DNA from: Streptococcaceae bacterium
GTDB taxonomy: Bacteria; Bacillota; Bacilli; Lactobacillales; Streptococcaceae
NCBI GenBank assembly: GCA_031270325.1
Contig: JAISXW010000031.1
Span: 1-34,974 of the forward strand
DNA length: 34,974 nucleotides
Reading direction: 5' to 3'
The notes below the pieces were generated by a model. That model saw only the letters and a program-made list of their open reading frames with translations, had not been told where the DNA came from and did no database searches. Of this stretch, positions 3,532 to 34,974 are shown one piece after another (position 1 is the stretch's first letter; each line of letters starts with the position of its first letter). Made by a program: the position numbers and the translations under genes.

Positions 3532-3817
3532 AACGCTAGCCCCTAGAAATTTTAACGCTAGCTCCTAGCGTTTTTAACGCTAGCCCCTAGAGATTTTAGC
3601 GCTAGCTCCTAGCGTTTTCAGCGCTAGCTCCTAGAGATTTTAGCGCTAGCTCCTAGCGTTTTTAGCGCTAGCCCCTAGAAATTTTAACGCTAGCTCCTAG
3701 CGTTTTCAGCGCTAGCGCCTAGCGTTTTCAGCGCTAGCCCCTAGAGATTTTAGCGCTAGCCCCTAGCGTTTTCAGCGCTAGCCCCTAGCGTTTTTTACGC
3801 TAGCGCCTAGAGATTGC
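3532..3817. repeat. Array A: thirteen 22-bp tandem units
   Basis: Thirteen contiguous units of exactly 22 bp run from the mal terminator to the stop codon of the LCP gene. Each holds GCTAG-N3-CTAG. In seven units (ending CGTTTT) the core is the dyad CGCTAG-N3-CTAGCG, alternating irregularly with units ending AGATTTT or AAATTTT. There are no spacers, so it is not CRISPR. It lies between convergent genes and has no coding signal. A single related dyad (CGCTAG-N7... CTAGCG) occurs at 13139-13158. The function is unknown. Confidence 0.92.
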
Positions 3818-7304: not shown

Positions 7305-7590
7305 GACAAAGGCATGAAGCAAACACGAGGTATCAGTGACTTTAAAAGGATCAAGCTATCCTGACAACTTAGATGCCGTTCCAATCTTTATCTCAAAACA
7401 AGGTGGTCACACGCTCTCCAAAAATAAGTTTAAAACTGTGACAAGGATGGACTTGCCGAGGAAACGAAGCGCCGCTTTTCCAGCTAACTGCCGAGCCTAT
7501 GGTCTCGCTCTTGTCTATACACCACAGTCGTTTTGAGCTACCCCTCTCCACTGCACAACAAATTCGTCTTACTGAGAGGGGGCGGCGTGT
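7305..7590. repeat. Dispersed repeat element, copy 1 (degenerate, longest)
   Basis: This stretch shares blocks with 8805-8905, 13905-14056 and 25598-25735: a GCATGAAGCA / CACGAG start, CTGACAAC, a CCGTTCC-to-TCTCAAAAC segment, CACGCTCTCC, and a closing CTGCACAACAAATTCG also seen in copy 4. TCTCAAAAC (7391-7399) and GTTTTGAG (7530-7537) form an inverted pair also present in copy 3. It has no transposase and no convincing reading frame. Confidence 0.6.
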
Positions 7591-7611
7591 GGTTAAGTTT
7601 TAGTAAGGATG

Positions 7612-7863
7612 GTCTCACTTTTTGTGAGGATGGTTCTATTATTTGTAGAACACGTTCTATTTTTTGTAGAACTCGTTCTATTTTTTATAGAACTGGTTCT
7701 ATTTTTTGTAGAACTCGTTCTATTATTTGCAGAACTCGTTCTATTATTTATAGAACTCATTCTATTTTTTATAGAACTCGTTCTATTATTTATAGAACTC
7801 GTTCTATTATTTATAGAACTCATTCTATTATTTATAGAACTCGTGCCGCTTTTGTAGAACTGG
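7612..7863. repeat. Array B: about twelve 21-bp tandem dyad units
   Basis: Ten full 21-bp units (7633-7842) have the form GTTCTA-N7-TAGAAC plus two bases, each able to fold as a 6-bp hairpin with a 7-nt loop. Divergent edge units follow the same period; the left one (7612-7632) has CTCAC-N5-GTGAG, a different sequence that keeps the dyad. It lies between the convergent-side end of the ebsA region and the TMEM175 gene. All reading frames through it stay open because 21 is a multiple of three, so the open frames are not evidence of coding. Confidence 0.92.
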
Positions 7864-8120
7864 TTTCAGCTTTAGAACACCTCAAACAACTGGATCTTTG
7901 CTCTGTGAGACAGATTTTTTGTCTGACCGCTCAACGCCTAAACGGCAAGTCCAAAGCCATATCCTACATGGGACGAGAAATCTGACCGCAGGCGGTTCAT
8001 GAGTGATTAGGGGTGCCCTTAGGTTCATCATTGCGCTTCGGAAGTCCGTATTGTAAGGATTTTGTTCAGACTGTGCAATGTGTCACGTTAACTTTCAGCT
8101 CTGATAGCAGATGAAAACGC
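7864..8120. other. Intergenic stretch without a recognisable gene
   Basis: Between Array B and the TMEM175 gene. A short hairpin-like sequence (AGACAG ... TGTCT near 7905-7924) and a CCGC-AGG-CGG dyad near 7985 are visible. No start codon with a ribosome site leads into a plausible protein. No known element was recognised. Confidence 0.4.
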
Positions 8121-8905: not shown

Positions 8906-9805
8906 AAGTGCGACATTCGCTTTTAATTCTTTCAAAAAACGCTGACCCAGATCAGACAGTAGGCCTTTTTTATGCGTGATATAGCCAATCTCAATCGTCT
9001 CGTCAACAGTCAAAGGCACACTGACAATCTCATCGCCATTCAAGTCACTGTTTAAAATCCCTGTTGAAATGGTGTAGCCATCCAGTCCAATCAAGAGATT
9101 AAACAAGGTCGCACGATCTGATACAACGATCGATTTATCATGTCTGACCGTAGATAAAATCTCCTCTGAAAAATAAAATGAATTGCGCTCCCCCTGTTCA
9201 TAGCTTAAATAAGGAAAGACTGCCATTTCCTCAAAACTGACCGACTTTTGATGAGCCAGAGGATGTTGTTTGGAGATAAAGACATGGGGTGTCGTCTTGA
9301 ATAATGAGGTAAATTCAAGTTGATTGTCCACAAAAAGTTTGGTCAGGACTTCACGGTTAAACTCATTAAGGTATAAGACTCCGATTTCTGAGCGAAACTC
9401 TCGCACATCATCAATCACTTCGTGTGTTCGGGTTTCTCGCAAGATTAATTCATAATTTCTCATATCATGCTCGTGTAAAATACTGGCAAAGCTTTCGACA
9501 ACAAAAGCATAATGCTGCGATGATACTGCAAATAATTCCCGTTTTTCTCTATTATATTTGTACCGTGCTTCCAAAAGTTCTGTCTGCTCGACAATCTGTC
9601 TGGCATAGGACAAAAACTCTGCTCCATCAGAGGTCAAGGTAATCCCCCGACTTGAGCGGATGAAAATTTTGATGCCCATCTCTTCTTCTAATTCACGAAT
9701 CGCGTGAGATAAAGAAGGCTGCGACACAAATAAATGCTTGGCGGCCTCATTCATTGACCCCGTTTCAACGATTTTAATCATATAGTTTAATTGCTGAATT
9801 CTCAT
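8903..9805 (-). CDS. LysR-family transcriptional regulator
   Basis: 300 residues from the ATG at 9805, which has AGAAAGG upstream; an in-frame start at 9832 adds residues without a ribosome site. The N-terminal winged helix-turn-helix (about residues 1-60) includes GSMNEAAKHLFVSQPSLSHAIRELEEEMG, the LysR DNA-binding signature. Residues from about 90 form the effector-binding domain. It is transcribed away from the ptn PTS operon, with 491 bases between start codons, so it may control that operon or only itself; the ligand is unknown. The last residues (NVAL) and stop come from a dispersed repeat, suggesting the original end was replaced. Confidence 0.9.
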   Translation of the reverse strand: MRIQQLNYMIKIVETGSMNEAAKHLFVSQPSLSHAIRELEEEMGIKIFIRSSRGITLTSDGAEFLSYARQIVEQTELLEARYKYNREKRELFAVSSQHYAFVVESFASILHEHDMRNYELILRETRTHEVIDDVREFRSEIGVLYLNEFNREVLTKLFVDNQLEFTSLFKTTPHVFISKQHPLAHQKSVSFEEMAVFPYLSYEQGERNSFYFSEEILSTVRHDKSIVVSDRATLFNLLIGLDGYTISTGILNSDLNGDEIVSVPLTVDETIEIGYITHKKGLLSDLGQRFLKELKANVAL

Positions 9806-13740: not shown

Positions 13741-13878
13741 TCGCTTGGGCAAGTGCTGGGCAGTACTTTGGTAAATGCAGGCCTACACTTTGCTAAATGC
13801 AGGCCTACACTTTGGTAAATGCAGGCCTACACTTTGGTAAGTCACGGTCAACACTTGGACAAGTCACGAGCATGACTT
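13741..13878. repeat. Array C: about six 22-bp tandem units
   Basis: Three nearly identical 22-bp units (each containing GGTAAATGCAGGCCTAC) are flanked by diverged units in the same 22-bp phase, marked by ACTT(T)GG. The diverged units keep short dyads such as AAGTCA-N6-TGACTT and AAGT-N10-ACTT. It lies between the manO terminator and a dispersed element. No coding signal was seen. Confidence 0.85.
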
Positions 13879-21709: not shown

Positions 21710-23956
21710 TTAATCGAAACCTTTGGCATAGGTACTATTAGGGTCATACGTATTGCCATCAAACACAGCTACTTTCACGCCATCATTATAAACAATGTTC
21801 CCATCCTTATTTTGCATGAAACGATTCGCATATGGGAAATCCTCCACGAAAGTCGTGTCTTTAGCAAGGAGAGGAGCCTCCTCACTGCTGCTATCGCTAT
21901 CATGACGAGGTAAATGGCATGAACTCGCAAAGTAGACTCGCCCATTAATCGCCGTTATCTCCCAGTCCCCATGCCCTTCACTCTTCTTGCTGTGAATAAA
22001 AGATTCCATCTCATCTGATAAAGGACCTAGCTTTTCTAAATCACTCTGCTTGATCGTGACGCCATGGGTAAGTGCCGTCACTTTAAGCTTATTTACCGCT
22101 GCATTAACATTAGAGTCCTTTCCTAATGGATAATTGGCTGTTTCAAAGCTTGTATTGGGTTGCCAATAGCTCATCACGCCCAAGGTCGTGGCTTTATTGT
22201 TCCGTTGATAAGTATCCGTCCAAGTACTTCCAGATCGTGACGCGTGCAACTCTTTGTTTTCCGCCACTTTATTGAGACTAGGGGCATCATTATTATCTGC
22301 CAAAGACGTATCATACAAATCAATTTCCCCTTTACCTACACCTCCAATATCATCCCGACGTCCTTGACCTGTCCATAATTCATCATAGCTATCCAGATTA
22401 AAACCAGCATCTGTTAGATCAGTCCGGAGTTTTCGCTGCCATATAGATGAAAACGATCCTAGGTTAGAAAGTTCTCCCGGCGTCACCTTATGATGCACAG
22501 CATCCGATTGTTCTGAGGTCAATGAAGGGAAAGTCTTCTCTTCCCCTTTATCAATGTTGTAACTAAATACTGTCCGCATCAGACTTGGGGCAGGAGCAGC
22601 CACAATGTGTTTATTGAGGGCTGTTGGACCTTGCCCACCGCTTGCGTTATAGGCTAAAATTTTCCCTTCTTTTAGAGAATCAACCATTTCTATTTTGACT
22701 TGCTTATACTCTTGTTGCAAGACGTGTTCGACTCTTCGCTGCATGACCACCACGGAATTAACGGGATCCGTCTCACTGAGTCGCACCTTGTCTAAGTCGA
22801 TATTCGCCGTTGCTTCAGCAATATTCCCCTGTGCCTCAGCTCGAGTGAAGACCTTATCCTGAACCATTTTTTCCAAACTCGCCTTATAGGTCTCATTTTT
22901 CGCTAAATCATAAGCGATAGTCTCTTGAAGGATTGAAAAAAGAGAGGTCACACTGTCATCAATGGATTGATAAAATGCCAGTTTCAGATCAAATAAAGAT
23001 TTCCCACCCAGCTTTGATGTATTGAAACTTGCTTTTGAGGCACAATATTCATCAAATAATTTAGTAATGGTCGCTTGACCGCCATTGCTATTCGTTTGCA
23101 AACAAATATCATTTGTTAGCGTGATAAAATCTGATACCAAGTCTTCATTTGCTTTTCCTCCGTTGATCTTATTTGTTAAATCACTTGGCTGATAATTCCC
23201 AGCAGGAAAACGCGGCACAGCTCTTGTCGCATATTCATCTTGCAACAAACTATCCAAACGTGCAAATTCACTTTGATATTGCATTGTCCCAGTCTGAAGT
23301 TGATTCAATGCGGTTAAAATATTTTTAAACGAGCTATAATACTTCGTATGCATTGCAAGCAACTTTTGCTTCATATTTGTAATGTTACTTAAATAGCTAC
23401 GCACATCGCTGACCAAATTTCCTGTGCCAACCAAATTAGTCACGCTAGCTTGAAAAGAAGAAACCTGAGTTGTCAACGCATCCAGTTTCTCCATTACCGG
23501 ATCTTTTTCGGGGGCCTTAAACAAGTCAAAGAGGAAAAAAATTGTTGGGCAAATAGAGCCACCCATACGCAAGAAATTCGCTGCACGGTGTTTCTTGCCC
23601 TCTCCGTCTTCTTTAAACCAGTCTGAAGCTGTCTTAAAGGCATTTGTCACAAAATTATCAACAAACGTTTCCACTGCCGACTTATTGTCTTGTTGAAACT
23701 GCGTAGAAAAAACATCTATTTTTCCCTGTACTTGTCCTGGGATAGTAGCAGTTCCTGCTCCTATTGCTGCTCCTATTTTTGTTCCTGTTTCTTCTTGTGC
23801 CTGTTCTGATGGCGTCGCTACTGTTGGCGAGGCTGTTAACAATTCCGATTGTTGTTTTGTCTGATTAGACACCGACAATGCCAACACTTTCGTAAGTCCA
23901 ACATTTCCAAAAATCATACTGACCAAAACAAGCAAGGTCATTCCTTTTTTAAACAT
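21710..23956 (-). CDS. Large secreted protein of unknown function
   Basis: 748 residues from the ATG at 23956 (AAGGAGA upstream; an in-frame start 50 codons earlier has none). Residues 1-28 form a signal peptide (KK, then a hydrophobic core ending LTKVLALS). An Ala/Gly/Ser/Thr-rich stretch follows, then a hydrophobic patch (GGSICPTIFFLFDLF, near 132-146) and a long helical region (about 155-420) with heptad-like spacing (KLDALTTQVSSFQASV). The C-terminal third (about 470-748) is Asp/Ser-rich and mixed. No anchor motif or catalytic motif was recognised. A hydrophobic segment followed by a helical bundle recalls alpha-helical pore-forming toxins, but that is only a resemblance in layout. It is flanked by direct repeats and has phased repeats upstream. 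Confidence 0.8.
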   Translation of the reverse strand: MFKKGMTLLVLVSMIFGNVGLTKVLALSVSNQTKQQSELLTASPTVATPSEQAQEETGTKIGAAIGAGTATIPGQVQGKIDVFSTQFQQDNKSAVETFVDNFVTNAFKTASDWFKEDGEGKKHRAANFLRMGGSICPTIFFLFDLFKAPEKDPVMEKLDALTTQVSSFQASVTNLVGTGNLVSDVRSYLSNITNMKQKLLAMHTKYYSSFKNILTALNQLQTGTMQYQSEFARLDSLLQDEYATRAVPRFPAGNYQPSDLTNKINGGKANEDLVSDFITLTNDICLQTNSNGGQATITKLFDEYCASKASFNTSKLGGKSLFDLKLAFYQSIDDSVTSLFSILQETIAYDLAKNETYKASLEKMVQDKVFTRAEAQGNIAEATANIDLDKVRLSETDPVNSVVVMQRRVEHVLQQEYKQVKIEMVDSLKEGKILAYNASGGQGPTALNKHIVAAPAPSLMRTVFSYNIDKGEEKTFPSLTSEQSDAVHHKVTPGELSNLGSFSSIWQRKLRTDLTDAGFNLDSYDELWTGQGRRDDIGGVGKGEIDLYDTSLADNNDAPSLNKVAENKELHASRSGSTWTDTYQRNNKATTLGVMSYWQPNTSFETANYPLGKDSNVNAAVNKLKVTALTHGVTIKQSDLEKLGPLSDEMESFIHSKKSEGHGDWEITAINGRVYFASSCHLPRHDSDSSSEEAPLLAKDTTFVEDFPYANRFMQNKDGNIVYNDGVKVAVFDGNTYDPNSTYAKGFD

Positions 23957-24059
23957 TTCTTTTTTCTCCTTAGTTGATCTCAAAATAATCATCAAAAAGT
24001 TCAATGGTTTTTGTACCGTATTCAGTTTAACATGGATTAAAGTCCTGAAATGTAAAAGT

Positions 24060-24092
24060 TTTGTCAGTATTTTGTAAATCTTTTGTAAAGCC
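24060..24092 (-). promoter_or_regulatory. Three 11-bp direct repeats upstream of the secreted-protein gene
   Basis: TTTTGTCAGTA, TTTTGTAAATC and TTTTGTAAAGC occur back to back (plus strand), exactly 11 bp apart, 104-136 bases upstream of the start codon and beside a weak promoter (TGT-TAAACT at 24025-24033 on the minus strand). One helical turn of spacing suggests cooperative binding of an activator on one DNA face. Confidence 0.55.
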
Positions 24093-24137
24093 CACAAGCC
24101 TGACACGCATCATTTTTAAATACCAGTGGCATGAAAT

Positions 24138-25794: not shown

Positions 25795-26369
25795 GGTTCT
25801 CAGACAAGGAACGTTAGGTCTTAAAGCACTAACATTATCTCTCGGACAAGTAACGTTGCCTATAAAAGTACTAACGTTAGTACTCGGACAAGGAACGTTA
25901 GGTCTAAAACTACTAACGTTACCTCTCGGACAAGTAACGTTGATTCTAAAAGTCCTAACGTTTCTTCTCGGACAAGGAACGTTACTTCTAAAACAAGTAA
26001 CATCAGTTCTAAAAGTCTTAACGTTTCTTCTCAGACAAGGAAGGTTACCTATAAAAGTAATGCCCTTTCGTCTCAAACAGGCATCATGACTGCTCAGACA
26101 GGGAAAATTAGCACCCTCAAAGGACTAACGTTACTGCTCAGACAGGGAACGTTACTTCTTAAAGCAGTAACGTTACCCTTAATACAAGTCACGTTACTGC
26201 TCGGACAGGCAAAATTGGCAGGCTCGGAGCAGTAACGAGCGCTCTTAAACGAGTAATGTCCGCTCTCAAAGTAGTAATGCGCGCTTTCAGACAAGTAACG
26301 TCCGCTCTCAAACTAGTAATGCGCGCGCTTAGACAAGTAACGTCCGCTCTCAAAGTAGTAACGTTCACG
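25795..26369. repeat. Array D: 21-bp tandem units (AACGTTA type, diverging)
   Basis: A run of 21-bp units in a 42-bp alternation (CTCGGACAAG-type and TCTAAAA-type) joined by AACGTTA-like blocks. Many are dyads with matched arms, for example GTTACTT-N7-AAGTAAC, GTTAC...GTAAC, GTTAG...CTAAC, and GTTTCTT/AAGGAAC with one G-T pair. From about 26100 the units diverge, keep the period, and grade into Array E. Both strands have open frames, as expected of a period divisible by three. Confidence 0.9.
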
Positions 26370-26825
26370 CTCTGAGCTCCGATGTTCTCGCTCCGAGATC
26401 GGAGAGTTCTGCTCCGAGCCCGAGTAATCCTGCTCTAACCTCCGATGTTCCTCCTCCGAGCTCGAGTAATCCTGCTCTGACCTCCGATAGGCCCGCTCCA
26501 AGCTCGAGTAATCCTGCTCCGACCCCCGATAGGCCCGCTCCAAGCTCGAGTAGGCCTGCTCTGACCCCCGATAGGCCTGCTCCGAGATCGAGTAATCCTG
26601 CTCTGACCTCCGTTAGGCCTGCTCCGAGATCGAGTAATCCTGCTCTGACCTCCGATAGGCCTCCTCCGAGCTCGAGTAATCCTGCTCTGACCTCCGATAG
26701 GCCCGCTCCGAGATCGAGTAATCCTGCTCTGAGCTCCGATAATCCTGCTCTGAGCTCCGATAATCCCGCTCTGAGCTCCGATAATCCCGCTCCGAGCTCC
26801 GATAGCCCTGCTCTGAGCTCCCTTG
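26370..26825. repeat. Array E: 21-bp tandem units (GCTC/GAGC type)
   Basis: About 21 units of 21 bp with the alternating cores CTCGAGTAATCCTGCTC and CCTCCGATAGGCC(C/T)GCTC, becoming a simpler repeat (GAGCTCCGATAATCC) near the right end. GAGC...GCTC arms recur. It continues Array D in the same phase with a different, GC-richer sequence. The open frames give heptad peptides such as LRAGLSE; no frame has a ribosome site. Confidence 0.9.
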
Positions 26826-26856
26826 TCGCACCAGTAACATCAAAAAGAAAGCATAC

Positions 26857-26892
26857 AAAAACCCATAGGACTGAACCGTCTCTATGGGTTTT
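26857..26892. terminator. Bidirectional terminator between array E and the surface module
   Basis: AAAAACCCATA (26857-26867) pairs with TATGGGTTTT (26883-26892). On the minus strand it ends the surface-module transcript with a TTTTT run. The 140 bases from here to 27034 hold no recognisable gene. Confidence 0.8.
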
Positions 26893-27034
26893 CAAATGAG
26901 TGATAACAGTCGCGTAGGGCGATAGGCTTTTTTGATGGTCGAGCGTGAGGGTTCTTGGCTTGAGGGTTACCCTTTACGCCGCCTGCTCCTTTGAGCACTT
27001 GCCTGTCACTCTAGCGGGTGACTGTTTCATGCGC

Positions 27035-27596
27035 TTACGATATATTGACAGCAGGGTCAACCGTGAAAGTTAGCGTGCCTTCGTACGTGCCTGCCAGTTT
27101 TGGTGCGCCAGTTTTAATAAAGAGATTTTGCGTTTGATTAGTCGTCTCACCAGTGACTGCTTCAACAAAGGCACCGCTTGATGGTGTCACTTGGTCTCCT
27201 GAATCAGCCGAATAGGCAGTTCCCTTATTAACCGTGTAGTTCAAGCCAGTGCCAGTGTCTGAACCGTCTGCAACATCTCCAGTTGTTCCCAACTCTAAAA
27301 ATGTACCAGTCTTGATAGCAACCGTCAACTTCTTGGCATTTGGAAGTTTCAAGGCATCGCTCGCTGCATTGATTGTGACAGCAAAACCACCATCCCCATA
27401 GGCACCAGATTGATTCGTTAACGTAATCACGTCCGGAATGACCACGGTGTATTTTTGACCGACATCATACGTCACATCTGAGTAACCTTCTGTATTAGGT
27501 GATTCAATCTCTTTGGGGCCCGCTGCAAAGATTGTCCCCCCCCCCCACAAGTAGCGTGGCAGAAAATACCACGGCGCTTAATAGTCTTTTTTTCAT
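27035..27596 (-). pseudogene. Small exported surface protein, out of frame at a G11 tract (possibly phase-off)
   Basis: A start ATG at 27596 (AGAAAGGAAA upstream) opens a signal-peptide sequence, MKKRLLSAVVFSATLLV, which runs into eleven G (27546 to 27536). With 11 G the frame shifts and stops after about a dozen codons; with 10 G it would continue GGG-TIFAAGPKEIES and give a 186-residue exported protein. The mature part is a beta-rich domain (YTVVIPDVITL ... LTVAIKTG ... GTYEGTLTFTV) that resembles residues about 1557-1669 of the giant protein encoded upstream. There is no LPxTG and no WxL motif. It is either a phase-variable gene caught off or a homopolymer sequencing error. Confidence 0.7.
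27536..27546 (-). repeat. G11 homopolymer in the signal-peptide region
   Basis: Eleven consecutive C on the plus strand, 50 bases after the ATG of the small surface gene. Length 10 (or 7, 13) is in frame; 11 is not. Confidence 0.9.
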
Positions 27597-27899
27597 AACA
27601 TTTTCCTTTCTTGTTTGTGCGCGATTTGTTCGTTACCTTTGTTCATTTACAAGGGAGTTTGTTTGCCCTTGGTCTTAGCCCGTCAGTCCTCTTAGGCGCT
27701 GATGAGCCGAGTCGTTGATTTGATGCTGACTGGCACCACCTCCTGAAAAGGTTGAGACGACTGCTAAGACCCGTCGCCAGTTAGGGATTATGCCTAAGTG
27801 TGCGCAACCCTTTAGCACGTCCCGAGTGCAGTGGCGCAGGTTGGCGCTTAGCAGGATTTGCCCGTCCGCACCTGAGTCCTCGTGCGAGTGACTCGCACC
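27597..27899 (-). other. Intergenic region with structured leader-like sequence
   Basis: GGTCTTAGC (27671-27679) pairs with GCTAAGACC (27763-27771), enclosing a GGCACCACCTCCT box (27732-27744), which reads AGGAGGTGGTGCC on the coding strand. GTGCGAGT-G-ACTCGCAC (27882-27898) is a perfect dyad right after the stop of the upstream gene and may terminate or process the transcript. No gene was found. Confidence 0.45.
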
Positions 27900-28457
27900 T
27901 TATTTGACCACTATTTTTGTCTTCAAGTCTGCACCATTCATGGCGACATGTGGTTCTGCTAGGCTGAGCGTTCGGACTTCAAAAACGGCATTGTATTCGC
28001 CAGGTTCTAGGCCGCGGCTAAGGGTTTCGGCATTGACCGTCTTGCCGGGTGGGATGTCCTCTGAGGTATAGAGGACTTCGCCGGTATCAACCAGCTTCAG
28101 CGTGTACTTGAAGTAACACGGGTTGCTGGCTGGATTTTCCAATGGCACTTCGACCGTCGTGGCACCTGCTGGGAAATGCAGCTCAGGATAGCCCGGAATC
28201 TCGATCCCCTTGCTGGCAGCCTCGTTCGCCTTTTTCTTCTTATCGCCCGCATTGGGATCGACCTTGACTGATCGACCACCTGTCATCGGCAAGATGAAGT
28301 CTTCTGTCAGTTTGTAAGCGCCGAATAATAGGATCAGGCCGCCTCCAGCTAGTACAAAAAACCAAATCCAGAATTTACGCTTTTTCTTCTTCTCTTCTTC
28401 TTCAACTGCTGTCGTTTCGGCGACATCTACCGTTTTTTCTTCTTCGATGATACTCAT
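27900..28457 (-). CDS. Single-pass membrane protein with extracellular Ig-like domain
   Basis: 185 residues: an acidic then Lys-rich cytoplasmic segment (1-27), one membrane helix (about 28-48), a Lys-rich linker, and an extracellular beta-sandwich-like domain (about 85-185; ENPASNPCYFKYTLKL, SEDIPPGKTV, LEPGEYNAVFEV). It is not a family I can name. It lies between the giant exported protein and the small surface protein, so an anchoring or assembly role in that module is a reasonable guess. The AAAGGAG upstream touches the ATG, an unusually short spacing, so translation may be weak or the start uncertain. Confidence 0.75.
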   Translation of the reverse strand: MSIIEEEKTVDVAETTAVEEEEKKKKRKFWIWFFVLAGGGLILLFGAYKLTEDFILPMTGGRSVKVDPNAGDKKKKANEAASKGIEIPGYPELHFPAGATTVEVPLENPASNPCYFKYTLKLVDTGEVLYTSEDIPPGKTVNAETLSRGLEPGEYNAVFEVRTLSLAEPHVAMNGADLKTKIVVK

Positions 28458-28741
28458 CTCCTTTCTCTGTGTCCAATAGGTTGACTAACCAAGCCCTCTC
28501 AGCCTCCGTGGGCGCTTGGTTGCTTGCTCATTTATCGTGATGATTGGCACCACCTCCTTTAAAGTCAGATCTTTGCTGCTGAGCAGCGAGGGTTTTCGTG
28601 TCGTTTTTGGCAAACTGCCTTTGTGTGCTGCGCCCAATCTCAAGCGGTACATAGGTGGGCGTATCGGTAAGGGAAACCCCATTTTGCTCCCAATTGGGAC
28701 AGCACCTCCGCTATCTTGTGATTGCGCCATGCCTTTGTCGC
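28458..28741 (-). other. Intergenic region with a second AGGAGGTGGTGCC box
   Basis: The coding-strand box AGGAGGTGGTGCC (plus 28546-28558) lies about 100 bases before the 185-residue gene, as in the next intergenic region. AACCAAGC (28487-28494) pairs with GCTTGGTT (28514-28521). An 81-codon open frame (28485-28730) lacks a properly spaced ribosome site and looks unlike a protein. Confidence 0.4.
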
Positions 28742-31700
28742 TTAGCGTTTAAAGGTAATTCTGGCGTGGCCGTTGCCGGCGTTACCGGTCACCTGTGTCC
28801 CAGCGATTTGCCAGCTAGGGATCGTGGCGTTACCGGCAATCATGCTGGTGCTAGTGAAGACATAGTCACGGCCACCAAGCGTCATCACACTGCTATTATC
28901 ACCTGTTTTGTGTGTCCGTGGATTAGCAGTGTCATTGCTAGGATCGGCGATCGCCACACAGCCTGAATAACCAGAGATGAAGGACGATCCACCACCACCG
29001 GTCGTGACAGCGCCGGTGCCACTCGTACGTGCGCCACTTGAGCCGCCGTACCAGCCGCCACCACCACCTGAGACGTTGGCGTTAGTCGCAATACCACCTG
29101 TGCCAAAAGCGCCTGCCGTAGAAGTATTGACAGTTGCGTAAGTGGTCGTGACAGCAGCACCACCAGCAGTTTGCCCCCCCCCAAGACCAGCAACTCCAGC
29201 TCCAGTTTTATTGGTATCTTCATAGTAGCTCCCGTTGATACCCGTCAGTCCACCACCGGCACCACCGATGATTTCGGAAACAGTCGCATTCGTCGAACCA
29301 TCGTAGGCACTACCGCCGCCGCCGCCTGCCACCATGATTCTGGAATTGAGCGACAGGTTTTTGTTCCAGTCAGCAGTATTATCACCTTGAGTTATGCGGA
29401 AGTCAGTCGCACCGCCACCGGCAGTCCAACGGTCTGTATTGGAGCCAGTCGTACCCGTCGCGCCACCATTAAAAGCGACACGTTTCTCAGCCGTGGATTC
29501 GCCGACATAGATGTAGACGATTTGACCTGCCTCCAGAGTGATCTCACCTTTGGTGTAGGCACCTTTACTTCTCTTTTCTGAGTTATTCAAGTACTGAGCG
29601 CCTGCGCCCCATGCCTCGAACTGATAGGTCCCCGCCCGCAGTGCGGTAAAGGACTGCACCTCGCCGGTGTAGTAGAAGTCCTGCTCTATATCTGATGTGC
29701 CGGGCATGACAACATCATCAACAGCAAAGTTAAAGTTGAGGGTGCCAGTATAGGCGCCTGATTTCGTTGGTGTTGTGGTCGCTCGATTGATGGTCAGCTT
29801 GGCGACATCCTCGACATCGGTATCGAGCGTAAAGCTGGTCGCACTCGCGCCGTCTGCCCCTTTGCTGTCAAAGCTCGTAGCGAGCTCAAGCGTTTCACCG
29901 CTATTCGTGACGGCGACCTTGTCGGCAGTCGAGACTGTGAGTGATCTCTCGTTTTCCGGCATATACTCGGTTTTGACCGTGATATCCGCCTTGGTGCTGG
30001 CGTCATAATGACTAGCGGTAATCGACTCGGGGATCGTGACCGTGTAGGCCGGCAGATGAACCCACTTGACCCCATACCTGATGACCCCGTCAGATGGATC
30101 GACATAGTCTTTCATTCGGTCTTGTGACAGGTCAGCGGCAATCAAGAGACCTGTTTCAAGGGTCGTGGTCGCGGTCCCGCTCGTGTGTGTCAAGAAGCCA
30201 CGATAGAGGCTCCGTTGCGGACCCGTATTGGCATAAGTCGCGGGGGCGCTACTCGATTGTACTCGGCTATATCTGGAGCCGTTCTGGGTCCAGACTCCTG
30301 TCGCCCCTGGCATCGTCACCTGTTCACCGTCTGTATCGCCGACATCAACTTCGATCATATAGCCTCCGAACTCGACTACCACATCTTTTGAGAGAGAGGC
30401 AAACTGGTCCGCTGTTGGTATTTTGCGGACAGTGTACTCCCCACTTGCGAGGTTATTAGCCTCGTGTCCATGATTGGCTGGGATGGCAACACTTGAACCT
30501 TTGACCGCAATATCAATCGCCTCAGTGTCGCCAGTGTTTGTGATGATACCGTCTGATGTGCTTTGGTAGGCAGTCGCTGGCGTCGTAGTTAGGGTCGGTA
30601 CCCCTCGGCGATACATGTTCGTGCCACGTTCATTTGTACTTCCTTCAGTATCTTGTTGTGTCTGAAATGTCGCACTGGCTGGGATGATGACGATCCCACT
30701 TCCATCTGTGTAGGCATTATGGGTCAATTTGATTGCAATGCCCCAGCGGACATTATCATTCAAGAGCTCTGTCAAACTACCGCTTGAGTTCATAGCTGTA
30801 AAGGTATTACCATTATTTTTGCCGGGTTCAGCGATTTGGAAAGTATAGCCGCCATTCTCAGTCGGCAGATCATAGATCTCCGTCACATAGTTGATCCGGA
30901 GGTCACTAAAGTCCGGGGTCTTGAAGCGGGTGTAGTAGGTATTGCTGACGATCGTCGAGACGTGGTGATTCTGGTCTGCAGCGACTCTGACCTCGACCAG
31001 TTCTGAACTGGCAGGGTGAAGGTCGGTCAAGGCGAGGGTTGACGTCCCAATGGTAACTGCCCCGAGTGTCGTCCACGCGCTGTTATTGAGCCGATATTCC
31101 AGATTTGCCCCTGTTAGCTGGGTATAGTTAGTCAGGGTCAGGGTCAGGGTCAGGGTCGTGTCGGTCACGCTACCAGCCGTACCAGCTTCAACATTGGCTT
31201 TGGTCGGTAGGGTAACAGGATTCTCCCCCCAAGTCGCTAGCCCGATCGTTGTTTTCATCATTGCAGTGGCTTTGTATTCCGTTGTGGTGTCGTCACCTAC
31301 TTTATAGGTGACTTGCAAGTTCGCGGTATAGGCACCAGCATCGAGGGCACCATTGCTCCACACCGTAAAGTTTTTACTCTCACCAGCGGCGAGACTATCT
31401 GATCCAGTGGATAAACCACTGTTAGAAAAGGCGGTGGAAGTGTCGTTAATAATGTTAATACCACCTTGATTAGCTGCTTGAGTCGTACTCCGGTTGACGA
31501 GTATGATCTTTCCCATACCACCCTGATTACTAGTCTGATCAGTCTGGCCATAGATCGCAGTCATGTTTTCAACCCATTGGACCGAGATGATCCCACCTTC
31601 CTCGGTCATCCGCATGCTCGCTGGTGCATTGTCTGTGGCTTTCTCACGGATATAGTAGCTGTTACCTTTGACAAAGGGGTTAATCGTGGCAGTTCCGCCA

Positions 31701-34700
31701 CTTGCAACAGTCAGAGAATACCAGGTGCCCGTACCGTTTATCTGGTATTCGTAGTTTCCTGAGACGAGGGTATCGCCACGTTTGATGGTCGTCAGATTGA
31801 GCTTCTGACCACCGTCACCTACATCTATGACCTCAACACCCCCGATCGTCACCGCTTCGGCTTTGGCCACGATTGTATAGGCTGTTTTGGCTGAGGTAAA
31901 GGCAGTGTCACTGGCTTTGATACCGAACTCGACCGCATGGGATTTGATTTCCTGCCAACCGATTCTGGTATCATTGAGCTTTGTCGTACCAGTCGGTAAG
32001 TCGTGTTTCTCACTACCGACAGTGTTGACCGTGAGGTCATCCCTCGCTGTCGTCAGTTGCTCGTTTGGATAGTCGATCTTAACATCTGGACTACCTGTTG
32101 TTAAGACTGTCGGTCCAGCAGGTCGTGCTGGGACGACCAGTGTGCTGACTTCGCCGACTGCTGTGGCGTGGTCGAAGTGCTTGGTGTAGTGGAAGGTTCG
32201 TGCTGTCTCGCTCGGACTTGTATTCAAGAGCGCCGTCAGGCTGTAGGGTTGCACACCAGTCCCTTGTTCAAAGGTTGTGCCGTTGCCCATGTGATAGTCA
32301 ATGTCCGTTGGGATGACCTTTAGGGTATTTTCCCCTTCCTGACGCGTTGTGTAGATTATTTCATTGCCATAATCGATCAACAGAGTTTCTGGTGCGGCAT
32401 AGGCATTGACTGCCTTGGCGACATTATCATAGGCAGATAGGCAGACGACGAGGTCATGGCCTTGGTTCGCAGTCGGGATCGTCAGGGTGTAGATATTGCT
32501 TGACCCCTTAGTCGCCGCTCCGAGATGCTGACCAGTGATCAGGTCATAGATGTCGACCTTGCCCTTGCCATGATCCGTGTTCGTTAGCGGCTTGTCGAGG
32601 GTGATCTTCATCTGATTACTTGTCCGCACGACTTGATTAGCCTTGATCTCCCAGCTGGAGTTGCTCGGAGTTTCTTGATTGAAAGGATTGATGAAGCTGA
32701 CCTTGACTCCAGAAGCGATGGCATCTTGGTAAGTGATCTCGGTATAGGGCGCGGGTCTTGACACGACCAGATAGTCGGTCGGATCGCTGCCGAGCGAGAG
32801 GTTGAGTTCGTCCCATTTGATACTATGGTTGTCGACTGAGCCAGTCATCCAGTCTTTCACGGGGGTAGTGGTATCCCATTTGCCATCTGTTTTCTTGAGG
32901 AGGGCGTACTGGGTATTGGGTTCACACTTGTCGATTTCGATCTGACCGGTTGCTGATGATTCGCCGACCTTGACCCCACTGGTGATCGTCCCAAGGGTCG
33001 TGCTGGTGGTCAGCGTGCCAGCTGGGATCGTCAGGTCTTTGTAGTTGGCATCATCTAGGACGAGGGTTGGCGAGTCATTGGTGCCGAAAGCTTTGGAGAT
33101 AACGCCGACCGGCACGGAGACGACACGGTAGGTCTTCCCGCTCTCGAGGCCGTTAAAGCTCAGCTCACCGGCACTGTTGGGATAGAACCATGTGCCATCA
33201 CCTAGGGTGGCATAGGTCGGATCGTCAGCATTGGTCGTATTGGCAGGGATCGGTGTGATCTGGCTGCCCGCAAAGGTCGTCTGATTGAGCAGATCTGATG
33301 CTAGGTTGGTCACAATCGTCCCACGGACTTCGGCTAAGGCATAGGCACGGCCCGCCTGAGCCTGAATTTTGATGTGCTTGGCACCTGAGTAGTCGAGGGT
33401 CGGAGAGACCTCCAGTTCTGGCGAGGAGGTCACACTAAAGCCACCGACATTGGCACTGCCTCCTTGCGCTGCAACCGTCGTAACACCGACAATCGTCCGC
33501 CCCTGTCCCTCAGGGATCGTACCGCTCCCGCTATGCGCCGCAAAAGCAGTCCCAGTACTAGCCGTGAGTGCCACACTGTAAGTATGACCGAGATAGGTCA
33601 CGGCAAACTGTCGATCATTCAGCGCTGCCCATGCGTCGTAGTCGGTATCAGATACACTATCGCCCGTGGTTGCCGTGAGCCCATTGTCCGTTTTCAGCTG
33701 GTCGATAATCTTGCTAAAGGTATTGTCCTGAGTGGTCAATGCCTCAGCCGGATGAGCTGGATCGTCACTGCCATCTACTCCGTACGGCCAGATGGTCGTC
33801 GTATCGACACTGGCTGGCCCGATAATCACGGCGCAGATGTTCTTGGCACTGCTAGCAGTGCCACCTTGTTGGAACTGCCAGTTATAGATTCTACCCGGTT
33901 GGGTTGCGACTTCTTGGTAGATCGTCGTATTGGCGATTGTCGCATAGCCGAGGGTAGACCCACTGCCTTTTGTGATGGTCAGCATTTTGATGTCATCAGA
34001 CCCCACTGCCCCACGTGTCGTATCCCAGTAAGCTACCGTATTGCTTGCCCCAGCCTTTCTGGCGTATGAATTTCCCGTTGTGCCGCTCTCAAAGTTCCCA
34101 TTGAGCAGGGTCGGATAGAGTTGGTTAAATGCTTTTGTACCATTATAGTATTGGAGATCATCAGCAGTGTAGGCAGTCCCGTTGGTTTTTTTACCATTAC
34201 TTGTATCATAGGTCGCCGCCGCGATTTCATCAATGACTGTGACACTTGTTTCTGCGGTGTAGACATGGGCAGAGTTGCCACTCAGCGTGTTGGTCACTTT
34301 ACACCGATAGCTGTAGGTGCCGACTTGCTCAGGGGTAAAGACTTTATTGAGGATCGCTGTTTTACCGATCGTGTCATCATCACTGCCCACAGCACCATCT
34401 GGCTCATCAGCGACATCACGCCATTCAGTCTCTGAGGCTGCCTTAGTCTCCCATTGATAGGTCAAATGCCCCGCATCATCGGAATGCGCCTGCACAATGA
34501 GCCGCAAGGGCGCACCCTTGGCGAAAGTCCCACCAACTGGTTGGTGATCGATGACTGGACTTTGAACCTCTGTCGCCGCCACGATCCGATCAGGAAAGAG
34601 CAGCAAAAGCGGCACAGCAGCCGTCAACAGCTGACCAGCCACCAGCAAAAAGATACTCGCCAAAGCCAAGACCCGACTGCGAATGCGTTTTTTATGTTCA

Positions 34701-34723
34701 TGTGTGTTGTTTTGATCTCTCAT
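28742..34723 (-). CDS. Giant exported multidomain protein, C-terminal glycine-rich domain
   Basis: 1993 residues from the ATG at 34723 (AGAGGTAG upstream; an in-frame start at 34882 has no such signal). A basic tail (1-17) and a long hydrophobic stretch (18-43, then VAA near 48-50) form a signal peptide or signal anchor. Residues about 54-164 are Ig-like (YQWE ... GTYSYRCKVTN). A long middle of repeated beta-sandwich segments follows (recurring IDY-x-NE motifs). Residues about 1557-1669 share a domain with the small surface protein (YTVTIPESIT ... GAYTGTLNFNF). Residues about 1680-1993 are a glycine-rich domain (FEAWGAGAQ, YIYVGES, GGGATDFR, IMVAGGGGGSA, GGGLTG), like those of ALK/LTK receptors and their bacterial relatives. 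There is no LPxTG. Probably a surface adhesin or filament; GC content is visibly higher than in the neighbours. Confidence 0.88.
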   Translation of the reverse strand: MRDQNNTHEHKKRIRSRVLALASIFLLVAGQLLTAAVPLLLLFPDRIVAATEVQSPVIDHQPVGGTFAKGAPLRLIVQAHSDDAGHLTYQWETKAASETEWRDVADEPDGAVGSDDDTIGKTAILNKVFTPEQVGTYSYRCKVTNTLSGNSAHVYTAETSVTVIDEIAAATYDTSNGKKTNGTAYTADDLQYYNGTKAFNQLYPTLLNGNFESGTTGNSYARKAGASNTVAYWDTTRGAVGSDDIKMLTITKGSGSTLGYATIANTTIYQEVATQPGRIYNWQFQQGGTASSAKNICAVIIGPASVDTTTIWPYGVDGSDDPAHPAEALTTQDNTFSKIIDQLKTDNGLTATTGDSVSDTDYDAWAALNDRQFAVTYLGHTYSVALTASTGTAFAAHSGSGTIPEGQGRTIVGVTTVAAQGGSANVGGFSVTSSPELEVSPTLDYSGAKHIKIQAQAGRAYALAEVRGTIVTNLASDLLNQTTFAGSQITPIPANTTNADDPTYATLGDGTWFYPNSAGELSFNGLESGKTYRVVSVPVGVISKAFGTNDSPTLVLDDANYKDLTIPAGTLTTSTTLGTITSGVKVGESSATGQIEIDKCEPNTQYALLKKTDGKWDTTTPVKDWMTGSVDNHSIKWDELNLSLGSDPTDYLVVSRPAPYTEITYQDAIASGVKVSFINPFNQETPSNSSWEIKANQVVRTSNQMKITLDKPLTNTDHGKGKVDIYDLITGQHLGAATKGSSNIYTLTIPTANQGHDLVVCLSAYDNVAKAVNAYAAPETLLIDYGNEIIYTTRQEGENTLKVIPTDIDYHMGNGTTFEQGTGVQPYSLTALLNTSPSETARTFHYTKHFDHATAVGEVSTLVVPARPAGPTVLTTGSPDVKIDYPNEQLTTARDDLTVNTVGSEKHDLPTGTTKLNDTRIGWQEIKSHAVEFGIKASDTAFTSAKTAYTIVAKAEAVTIGGVEVIDVGDGGQKLNLTTIKRGDTLVSGNYEYQINGTGTWYSLTVASGGTATINPFVKGNSYYIREKATDNAPASMRMTEEGGIISVQWVENMTAIYGQTDQTSNQGGMGKIILVNRSTTQAANQGGINIINDTSTAFSNSGLSTGSDSLAAGESKNFTVWSNGALDAGAYTANLQVTYKVGDDTTTEYKATAMMKTTIGLATWGENPVTLPTKANVEAGTAGSVTDTTLTLTLTLTNYTQLTGANLEYRLNNSAWTTLGAVTIGTSTLALTDLHPASSELVEVRVAADQNHHVSTIVSNTYYTRFKTPDFSDLRINYVTEIYDLPTENGGYTFQIAEPGKNNGNTFTAMNSSGSLTELLNDNVRWGIAIKLTHNAYTDGSGIVIIPASATFQTQQDTEGSTNERGTNMYRRGVPTLTTTPATAYQSTSDGIITNTGDTEAIDIAVKGSSVAIPANHGHEANNLASGEYTVRKIPTADQFASLSKDVVVEFGGYMIEVDVGDTDGEQVTMPGATGVWTQNGSRYSRVQSSSAPATYANTGPQRSLYRGFLTHTSGTATTTLETGLLIAADLSQDRMKDYVDPSDGVIRYGVKWVHLPAYTVTIPESITASHYDASTKADITVKTEYMPENERSLTVSTADKVAVTNSGETLELATSFDSKGADGASATSFTLDTDVEDVAKLTINRATTTPTKSGAYTGTLNFNFAVDDVVMPGTSDIEQDFYYTGEVQSFTALRAGTYQFEAWGAGAQYLNNSEKRSKGAYTKGEITLEAGQIVYIYVGESTAEKRVAFNGGATGTTGSNTDRWTAGGGATDFRITQGDNTADWNKNLSLNSRIMVAGGGGGSAYDGSTNATVSEIIGGAGGGLTGINGSYYEDTNKTGAGVAGLGGGQTAGGAAVTTTYATVNTSTAGAFGTGGIATNANVSGGGGGWYGGSSGARTSGTGAVTTGGGGSSFISGYSGCVAIADPSNDTANPRTHKTGDNSSVMTLGGRDYVFTSTSMIAGNATIPSWQIAGTQVTGNAGNGHARITFKR
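29174..29182 (-). repeat. G9 homopolymer in the glycine-rich domain of the giant gene
   Basis: Nine C on the plus strand encode GGG at about residue 1847 (GLGGGQT). The tract is in frame as sequenced. Gain or loss of one base would cut off about 145 C-terminal residues. Confidence 0.85.
31131..31157 (-). repeat. In-frame hexanucleotide repeat (Thr-Leu)
   Basis: Four or so tandem GTCAGG units encode TLTLTLTL near residue 1193 of the giant protein. Slippage by one unit would alter length by two residues without a frameshift. Confidence 0.75.
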
Positions 34724-34946
34724 GACACTACCTCTTGTTTCACAAAGGCACAACCGGCCCTCTGTGACTGTCGTCTGCACGGCAGATACGCTACCGCCCC
34801 AACGACACCTCCCTTGTAAAAATTGATCGCCAGCTCCTGCTTCTTCATTGCTAACAAAGCCAACAAGCTGAACCCAAACCAAACGTCGCCTTCTGCCTCA
34901 GCAAGTTCGGTTTTCGATCACTTACCCAGCGAACAAGCTTACCATT
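34724..34946 (-). other. Upstream region of the giant surface gene
   Basis: Holds the leader of the giant gene. A GGAGGTG (plus CACCTCC near 34807-34813) about 90 bases before the ATG recalls the boxes before the two downstream genes. I could not identify a convincing promoter, and no gene is supported. Confidence 0.35.
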
Positions 34947-34974
34947 GTCTGTCTGTCTGTCTGTCTGTCTGTCT
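34947..34974. repeat. GTCT tetranucleotide repeat at the window edge
   Basis: Seven perfect GTCT copies run to the last base, so the true length is unknown. On the minus strand it is (AGAC)n. Slippage here would shift any frame that crosses it, and the window may end here because the repeat broke the assembly. Confidence 0.9.

Follow-up and report, generated by a model that had tools for sequence, protein, structure and literature searches.

The stretch of DNA analyzed here, referred to as the window, comprises the 34,974 nucleotides of contig JAISXW010000031.1, one contig of a single MAG assigned to a Streptococcaceae bacterium (1.47 Mb assembly, 70.6% complete). Three of its genes are considered here, all of them encoded on the minus strand, and the positions of their features are collected in Table 1. 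As a first-pass annotation of the window had it, the gene for a membrane protein lies between the genes for a giant secreted protein and a small protein. Sequence and alignment give the membrane protein a basic N-terminal end and a single helix near the N-terminus, followed by a presumably extracellular part. In the assembled sequence of the small gene, the 11-G tract places the frame of the ATG out of register with that of the domain, and the product is a 30-residue peptide. Reading of the C-termini in sequence revealed no LPxTG-type C-terminal signal in any of the three window proteins, in agreement with the annotation, and four sortase-like genes are present in the genome. The relatives used for comparison include Lactococcus reticulitermitis Rs-Y01 at the level of the genus (G006, locus L059), the MAG Nc350_bin205 at the level of the family (G032, locus L058) and Dorea sp. 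D27 (locus L060), which we take to belong to the Lachnospiraceae. Rs-Y01 is reported to come from a termite gut; Nc350 presumably represents a termite sample, and the window is likewise presumed to be of termite origin.

Table 1 Features of the three-gene locus, in positions of the window
Feature	Position	Strand	Description
Small protein gene	27035..27596 (about)	-	ATG at 27596 with ribosome site; codes for signal peptide, then shared domain; frame changes at G tract as assembled
Shared domain, small protein (YTVVIP ... GTYEGTLTFTV)	27059..27451	-	
Homopolymer of 11 G (C on + strand)	27536..27546	-	In signal-peptide coding region of small gene
Membrane protein gene	27900..28457	-	185 aa; single match in genome
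Giant secreted protein gene	28742..34723	-	1993 aa from ATG of MRDQNN; signal-peptide-like N-terminus
C-terminal glycine-rich domain of giant	28751..29644	-	Pfam PF12810 ALK_LTK_GRD, E=6.8e-39
Shared domain, giant (YTVTIPESIT ... GAYTGTLNFNF)	29726..30046	-	
Leader of giant	34724..34945	-	Resembles C17 giant leader (by eye)
(AGAC)7 tetranucleotide tract 5' of giant	34946..34974	-	Truncated at contig end

Inspection by eye of the intergenic gaps at 28485-28730 and 27600-27900 reveals a common ribosome-site-like element, GGAGGTGGTGCCA. Elsewhere in the window, a 798-aa frame at 21710-24106 contains a secretion-signal-like stretch past about residue 50 and has no NCBIfam match at E≤1. Tandem arrays with units of ~21-22 bp occupy intergenic positions 3534-3815, 7633-7865, 13765-13856, 25798-26056, 26231-26373 and 26409-26821 and are accompanied by spurious-looking repetitive ORFs at 7533-7985 and 26365-26895; repetitive ORFs of like kind are found elsewhere in the genome (L052, 6012-6437; L012, 11027-11395).

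The GC contents of the small, membrane and giant genes are 0.476, 0.501 and 0.531, respectively, as compared to 0.437 for window positions 1-26000. This elevation had been taken as consistent with transfer, and the elevation itself is borne out; the codon positions, however, do not support transfer. The giant gene has a GC of 0.50 at codon position 2 versus 0.34-0.44 in 14 neighboring genes, and its GC3 of 0.567 falls just above the neighbor range of 0.33-0.563. The excess resides mostly at codon position 2 because the protein is rich in Ala, Gly, Pro, Ser and Thr, and transfer as read from GC was set aside as weakly evidenced.

The domain that is common to the giant and the small protein begins with YTV.IP and ends with G.Y.GTL.F. 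In the giant, YTVTIPESIT starts at residue 1560 counted from MRDQNN (1613 in the longer ORF) and GAYTGTLNFNF starts at residue 1656, which fits the range of 1557-1669 assigned earlier. Direct comparison of the two proteins yields a marginal BLASTP match (E=5e-4 for the single pair). The giant domain scores z=4.5 against the small protein, a score that was reached by 1 of 2000 shuffles and by 0 of 2000 in a separate shuffle run, and the score of the whole giant was reached by 19 of 300 shuffles. A search with a profile built from the small protein and eight paralogues from the same genome did not report the giant. Two further proteins encoded in the genome match both ends of the comparison: the C14 protein matches the giant domain with z=13.0 and the small protein with z=19.0, and the corresponding values for the C28 protein are 10.9 and 17.9, with 0 of 1000 shuffles reaching the score in each case. 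The C14-giant match moreover continues through the glycine-rich domain with 48% identity over residues 1611-2046. The shared domain is therefore accepted: judged from sequence, the homology is secure through these two intermediates, weak as the direct match is. No solved relative was found for the domain at E≤1 or for the giant at E≤0.1, and the membrane protein gave eight weak matches to solved structures, most of which involved its helix or were Ig-like designs.

Thirteen carriers of the domain are present in the assembly, comprising 11 matches to the small protein (itself included) and two giants; a partial match on C24 (E=9e-5) was left out of this count. The ten paralogues of the small protein, all of which were read, have open frames of 423-536 aa. 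Eight of them end in a region with the look of DUF6273, which in a check on two paralogues gave E=0.031 (below cut-off) for one and no match for the other, and the remaining two have glycine-rich ends. The C14 and C28 proteins align with the PF12810 region of the giant. The second giant, on C17, carries the domain at its end. When nine of the ten paralogue loci and that of the C17 giant were read with their neighbors, all were solitary amid housekeeping-looking genes (by eye), and the paralogue genes are far from the membrane protein gene. A search of the genome with the membrane protein returned one match, such that the simplest reading is one dock serving many carriers, in an assembly from which some 30% of the genome is missing. 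A diversity-generating retroelement was considered as the source of the variable C-termini and rejected, as 0 PF00078 matches were obtained in this 70.6% complete genome and 3 of 14 control genomes matched.

Is this arrangement found in other genomes? In L058, a giant with the domain at its end is accompanied by the membrane protein and four small domain proteins, and L059 contains a giant, a membrane protein and four small proteins. Thus, a small and a large protein with a common domain occur in one cluster with the membrane protein in the window, L058 and L059. Using the membrane protein as query, matches were obtained in 13 of 59 genomes at E≤0.001 and in 7 of 398 genomes of a phylum sample at E≤1e-8, the genome of the window being included in both counts. 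Nine loci outside the window were inspected (six from the phylum search, L058, L059 and the Dorea locus), and a small domain gene adjoins the membrane gene in all of these except that of G229. By a loose pattern for the domain motif, as opposed to a profile, 13 of the 105 small ORFs in the nine loci bear the motif; 11 lie ≤700 bp from the membrane gene and two are in the same run. In 12 more distant Lactobacillales loci, relatives of the membrane protein adjoin other large and small surface proteins, and a motif-bearing gene, encoding an 821-aa protein, is present in one of the 12. The expectation that the genes occur together elsewhere is therefore borne out for close relatives and some distant Firmicutes (8/9 loci) and fails for most of the more distant Lactobacillales loci. 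In the former groups the membrane protein is a likely partner.

A further question is how the expression of these carriers might be controlled. A non-triplet repeat, a feature that the first-pass annotation does not mention, is located at the 5' end of every carrier (13/13), consisting of (AACG)n after the ATG in nine, poly-G in one, (CAGCA)15 in one and (AGAC)n in two. In the nine AACG paralogues, a ribosome site and ATG are followed, some nine bases further on, by (AACG)n with n=7-26 inside the reading frame, the C29 locus having lost the first base of its ATG at the contig edge. Read from the ATG, one of the nine is in frame and eight are out of frame, ending within 14-53 codons. Both wrong frames are represented among the paralogues, on which ground a single fixed alternative frame, as in programmed frameshifting, was rejected. 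The in-frame locus, at the end of C8, continues without a stop as far as the contig end, reaching into the signal peptide, and its sequence identifies it as the upstream half of C11b. Between the AACG tract and the signal core the paralogues are alike in the domain frame, and no conserved start codon is apparent by eye; with eight of nine genes out of frame, the ATG could perhaps not be the working start. These lengths derive from the one assembly that was read; a MAG can misrepresent the length of a repeat, and several of the tracts are located at contig ends. In L058, G8 occurs in the signal-peptide region of two small genes, of which one is in frame and the other out, and (CACAG)24 is located upstream of the giant. 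In the Dorea locus, (GACA)n stands upstream of the membrane gene and of a large gene, most of which is masked. In L. reticulitermitis the module is present and no tract was found in the 20.5-kb locus, nor was one found near the membrane gene in the six phylum-search loci; switching would therefore be an addition in some lineages and not everywhere part of the module. Long GACA tracts, partly masked, occupy positions 2403-2502 and 9038-9740 of the Dorea locus, and tracts also accompany acetyltransferase-like and glycosyltransferase-like genes on C2 of the window's own genome.

Upstream of the C7 paralogue, a leader ORF that has a ribosome site of its own contains the (CAGCA)15 tract; a hairpin of -38.1 kcal/mol with a T-rich tail comes next, and then the gene. 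The C17 giant is preceded by (AGAC)22 at the contig edge and a hairpin of -43.7 kcal/mol with a T tail. A giant adhesin on C4 (L120, G000:C4, 2185-8000), which is matched by neither the small protein nor the giant, has a leader with (GACA)24 and a hairpin of -23.7 kcal/mol with a T-rich tail. A leader ORF that contains the tract and has its own ribosome site and ATG is seen in C7 and C4; C16 carries the upstream half of a leader like that of the window giant, and the C17 leader begins beyond the contig edge. Stops in the three frames downstream of the tract are located at 5, 22 and 162 nt in C17, 2, 57 and 115 nt in C7, 3, 28 and 53 nt in C4 and 5, 22 and 93 nt at the window giant. The longest frame ends beyond the hairpin in C17, deep inside the hairpin in C7 and within the first hairpin arm in C4. 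In these three cases, the tract sets through the frame whether the leader stops before the hairpin or in or after it; the assembled tract lengths of C7 and C4 lead to the short leader. At the window giant, one of the three frames passes the hairpin region, where the hairpin is weaker (-21.6 kcal/mol) with an interrupted T run and the leader ATG is off the contig. A simple terminator scan listed none in this leader, nor did it list the C7 hairpin, which folding showed. By folding, no convincing terminator was obtained in the L058 and Dorea leaders (-16.0 and -11.8).

How common are such tracts? In themselves they are not rare, as one published survey counted 153 genera with long simple repeats (PMC11868660, excerpt). 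Genomes were searched with a degenerate pattern, (GAMM)6, that fits tracts of GAAC or GACA and misses other units. Among 59 relatives, six genomes match, with overlapping matches numbering 174 in the genome of the window, 180 in G032, 57 in G025, 38 in G011, 14 in G018 and 5 in G006. In the phylum sample, 10 of 398 genomes match (own included), with a maximum of 14 matches in any other genome of the sample. Control patterns read backwards also match the window's genome (41 and 25), because reversed GACA tracts fit the control pattern. In G025 and G032, 4- or 5-base tracts directly follow the ATG of glycosyltransferase-, acyltransferase- and polymerase-like genes (by eye).

We hypothesize, with moderate confidence, a phase-variable system of surface proteins that has the three genes as its core. 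Its YTVTIP domain would most likely be a docking domain: the small protein consists of little beyond it, and the giant and ten paralogues would join it to varied outer parts, namely glycine-rich domains, DUF6273-like domains and a long multidomain arm. The membrane protein would most likely retain the carriers at the cell surface, in the manner proposed for WxLIP and the WxL proteins, a docking predicted from the gene neighborhood and the likeness to WxL clusters. Expression would be switched at random through slipped-strand changes in repeat length, which are presumed to take place in vivo. The (AACG)n just 3' of the start codon would set the frame of nine paralogues, the G run within the signal peptide would set that of the small protein, and the AGAC or CAGCA leader repeats would decide whether the ribosome enters the hairpin before the giants and the C7 paralogue, as in Streptococcus gallolyticus Pil1. 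Display of the carriers at the surface is likewise predicted. More tentatively, and with odds that we would put below even, one membrane dock may hold a switchable set of at least 13 ligands with a plug domain, of which each cell would show a random selection, so that the surface of a gut commensal would vary combinatorially, with the same system and the same repeat places occurring in two Firmicute families.

An alternative hypothesis is that of a surface complex without switching. The tracts would then be artefacts of assembly or neutral microsatellites, the small gene would be a pseudogene or contain an error of sequencing, and other start sites would serve for constitutive synthesis of the proteins. 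In favor of this, 8/9 AACG genes are out of frame, several tracts are located at contig ends of a single MAG of 70.6% completeness, and intergenic 21-bp tandem arrays are found as well, so repeats may simply build up in this genome. We nevertheless regard this hypothesis as unlikely, since a 5' tract in all 13 carriers, with a ribosome site and ATG just 5' of the AACG tracts, argues against neutral scatter. Moreover, G tracts recur in the signal peptides of small genes in another genus, in related genomes the ATG of polysaccharide-type genes is likewise followed by 4- and 5-base tracts, and no alternative start is conserved between tract and signal core (by eye).

Could the module instead be a diverged WxL (csc or elr) cluster, in which a large protein, a small protein and a membrane partner bind peptidoglycan through the domain? 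The division of labor is as in described WxL clusters (PMC10599100, excerpt), those with WxLIP likewise pairing a single-domain small protein with a large protein of the same domain and a membrane protein. The Dorea locus adds a small LPXTG-like protein with a weak match (E=1.5e-5, 25.4 bits, cut-off 47) to the sortase-dependent EF2685/EF0750 family. However, none of the three window proteins matches Pfam WxL, DUF916 or DUF3324 at E≤1, on which ground WxL membership was rejected. The helix of the membrane protein is near the N-terminus rather than C-terminal, and its length of 185 aa compares with 337-365 aa for all WxLIP but one in the excerpt of PMC10599100. The repeat tracts constitute another difference, as does the position of the domain in the window giant, where it precedes a glycine-rich domain instead of standing at the protein end. 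A WxL origin is accordingly judged improbable. The FILTED domain was also considered for the membrane protein and rejected (E=0.042, 14.2 bits versus a cut-off of 40), and the term was not found in the open-license PMC literature. By sequence, the system belongs to no family tested.

Less probable still is the idea of the first-pass annotation that the domain is a polymerizing, pilin-like subunit, with the giant and small proteins forming a filament anchored by the membrane protein: four domain-only small proteins stand together in L058 and four in L059, as subunits might, but ten paralogues have other C-terminal domains and the nine read with their surroundings are solitary, the domain has no solved relative, and no pilin family scored above cut-off in the proteins scanned, where weak sub-cut-off matches were to Mfa1 fimbria and a pilin-like conjugation family. 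No evidence for polymerization through the shared domain was obtained. Docking to a common partner fits better than a two-protein polymer because the membrane protein is single-copy and the domain occurs in 13 mostly solitary proteins.

Simple-repeat contingency loci are best known from host-adapted Gram-negative bacteria, for example disease bacteria such as Haemophilus. The phase-variable system proposed above shares with the loci of Haemophilus and Neisseria a tetranucleotide tract directly after the ATG or a homopolymer in the ORF, as well as many loci per genome (PMC11868660, excerpt), and differs in occurring in a Gram-positive member of the Streptococcaceae and in one paralogous family with a common domain. 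For S. gallolyticus Pil1, a GCAGA leader-peptide attenuator has been shown experimentally (PMC3894217, in the excerpted part). A non-triplet repeat in a short leader ORF, a hairpin terminator before the gene and a frame-set leader length are common to Pil1 and to C7, C17 and C4; here, in contrast, the units are AGAC/GACA or CAGCA, several loci are present per genome, the arrangement is known from sequence, and the window case precedes surface proteins without a sorting signal. ALK/LTK glycine-rich proteins (PF12810) resemble the C-terminal domain of the giant, which is just one part of it and is silent on attachment. The module is real, and in it a WxL-like division of labor, on unrelated domains, would be combined with Haemophilus-type and Pil1-type repeat switching, docking and switching being the predicted elements.

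The Gram-positive cases encountered in the literature searched, as far as its excerpts extend, are single systems, S. gallolyticus Pil1 and Staphylococcus aureus PNAG, and no report of the present system was found in the open-license PMC literature. If the hypothesis is true, a relative of Lactococcus would possess a whole paralogous family of switchable surface proteins, and polysaccharide-type genes would stand under like tracts in its relatives. This would amount to combinatorial bet-hedging at a commensal surface, perhaps versus phages, insect immunity or changing attachment sites. The module also suggests a sortase-independent dock.

Related Streptococcaceae hold further tracts of this kind. 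Polysaccharide-type genes whose start codon is followed at once, or nearly so, by 4- or 5-base repeats are located at L092 (G025:C7, 1072-9274) and at L097 and L095 (both G032), and represent a candidate phase-variable capsule locus. One tract in G018 directly follows an ATG. GACA-type tracts near genes that by eye resemble restriction-modification genes, as in phasevarions, are found in G011 (L099, 9826-9878; L100, 9722-9821) and G018 (L098, 8063-8140). Finally, a GAAC leader tract at L096 (G032:C45, 7006-8007) precedes a gene whose product has, by eye, a TasA/camelysin-like look.
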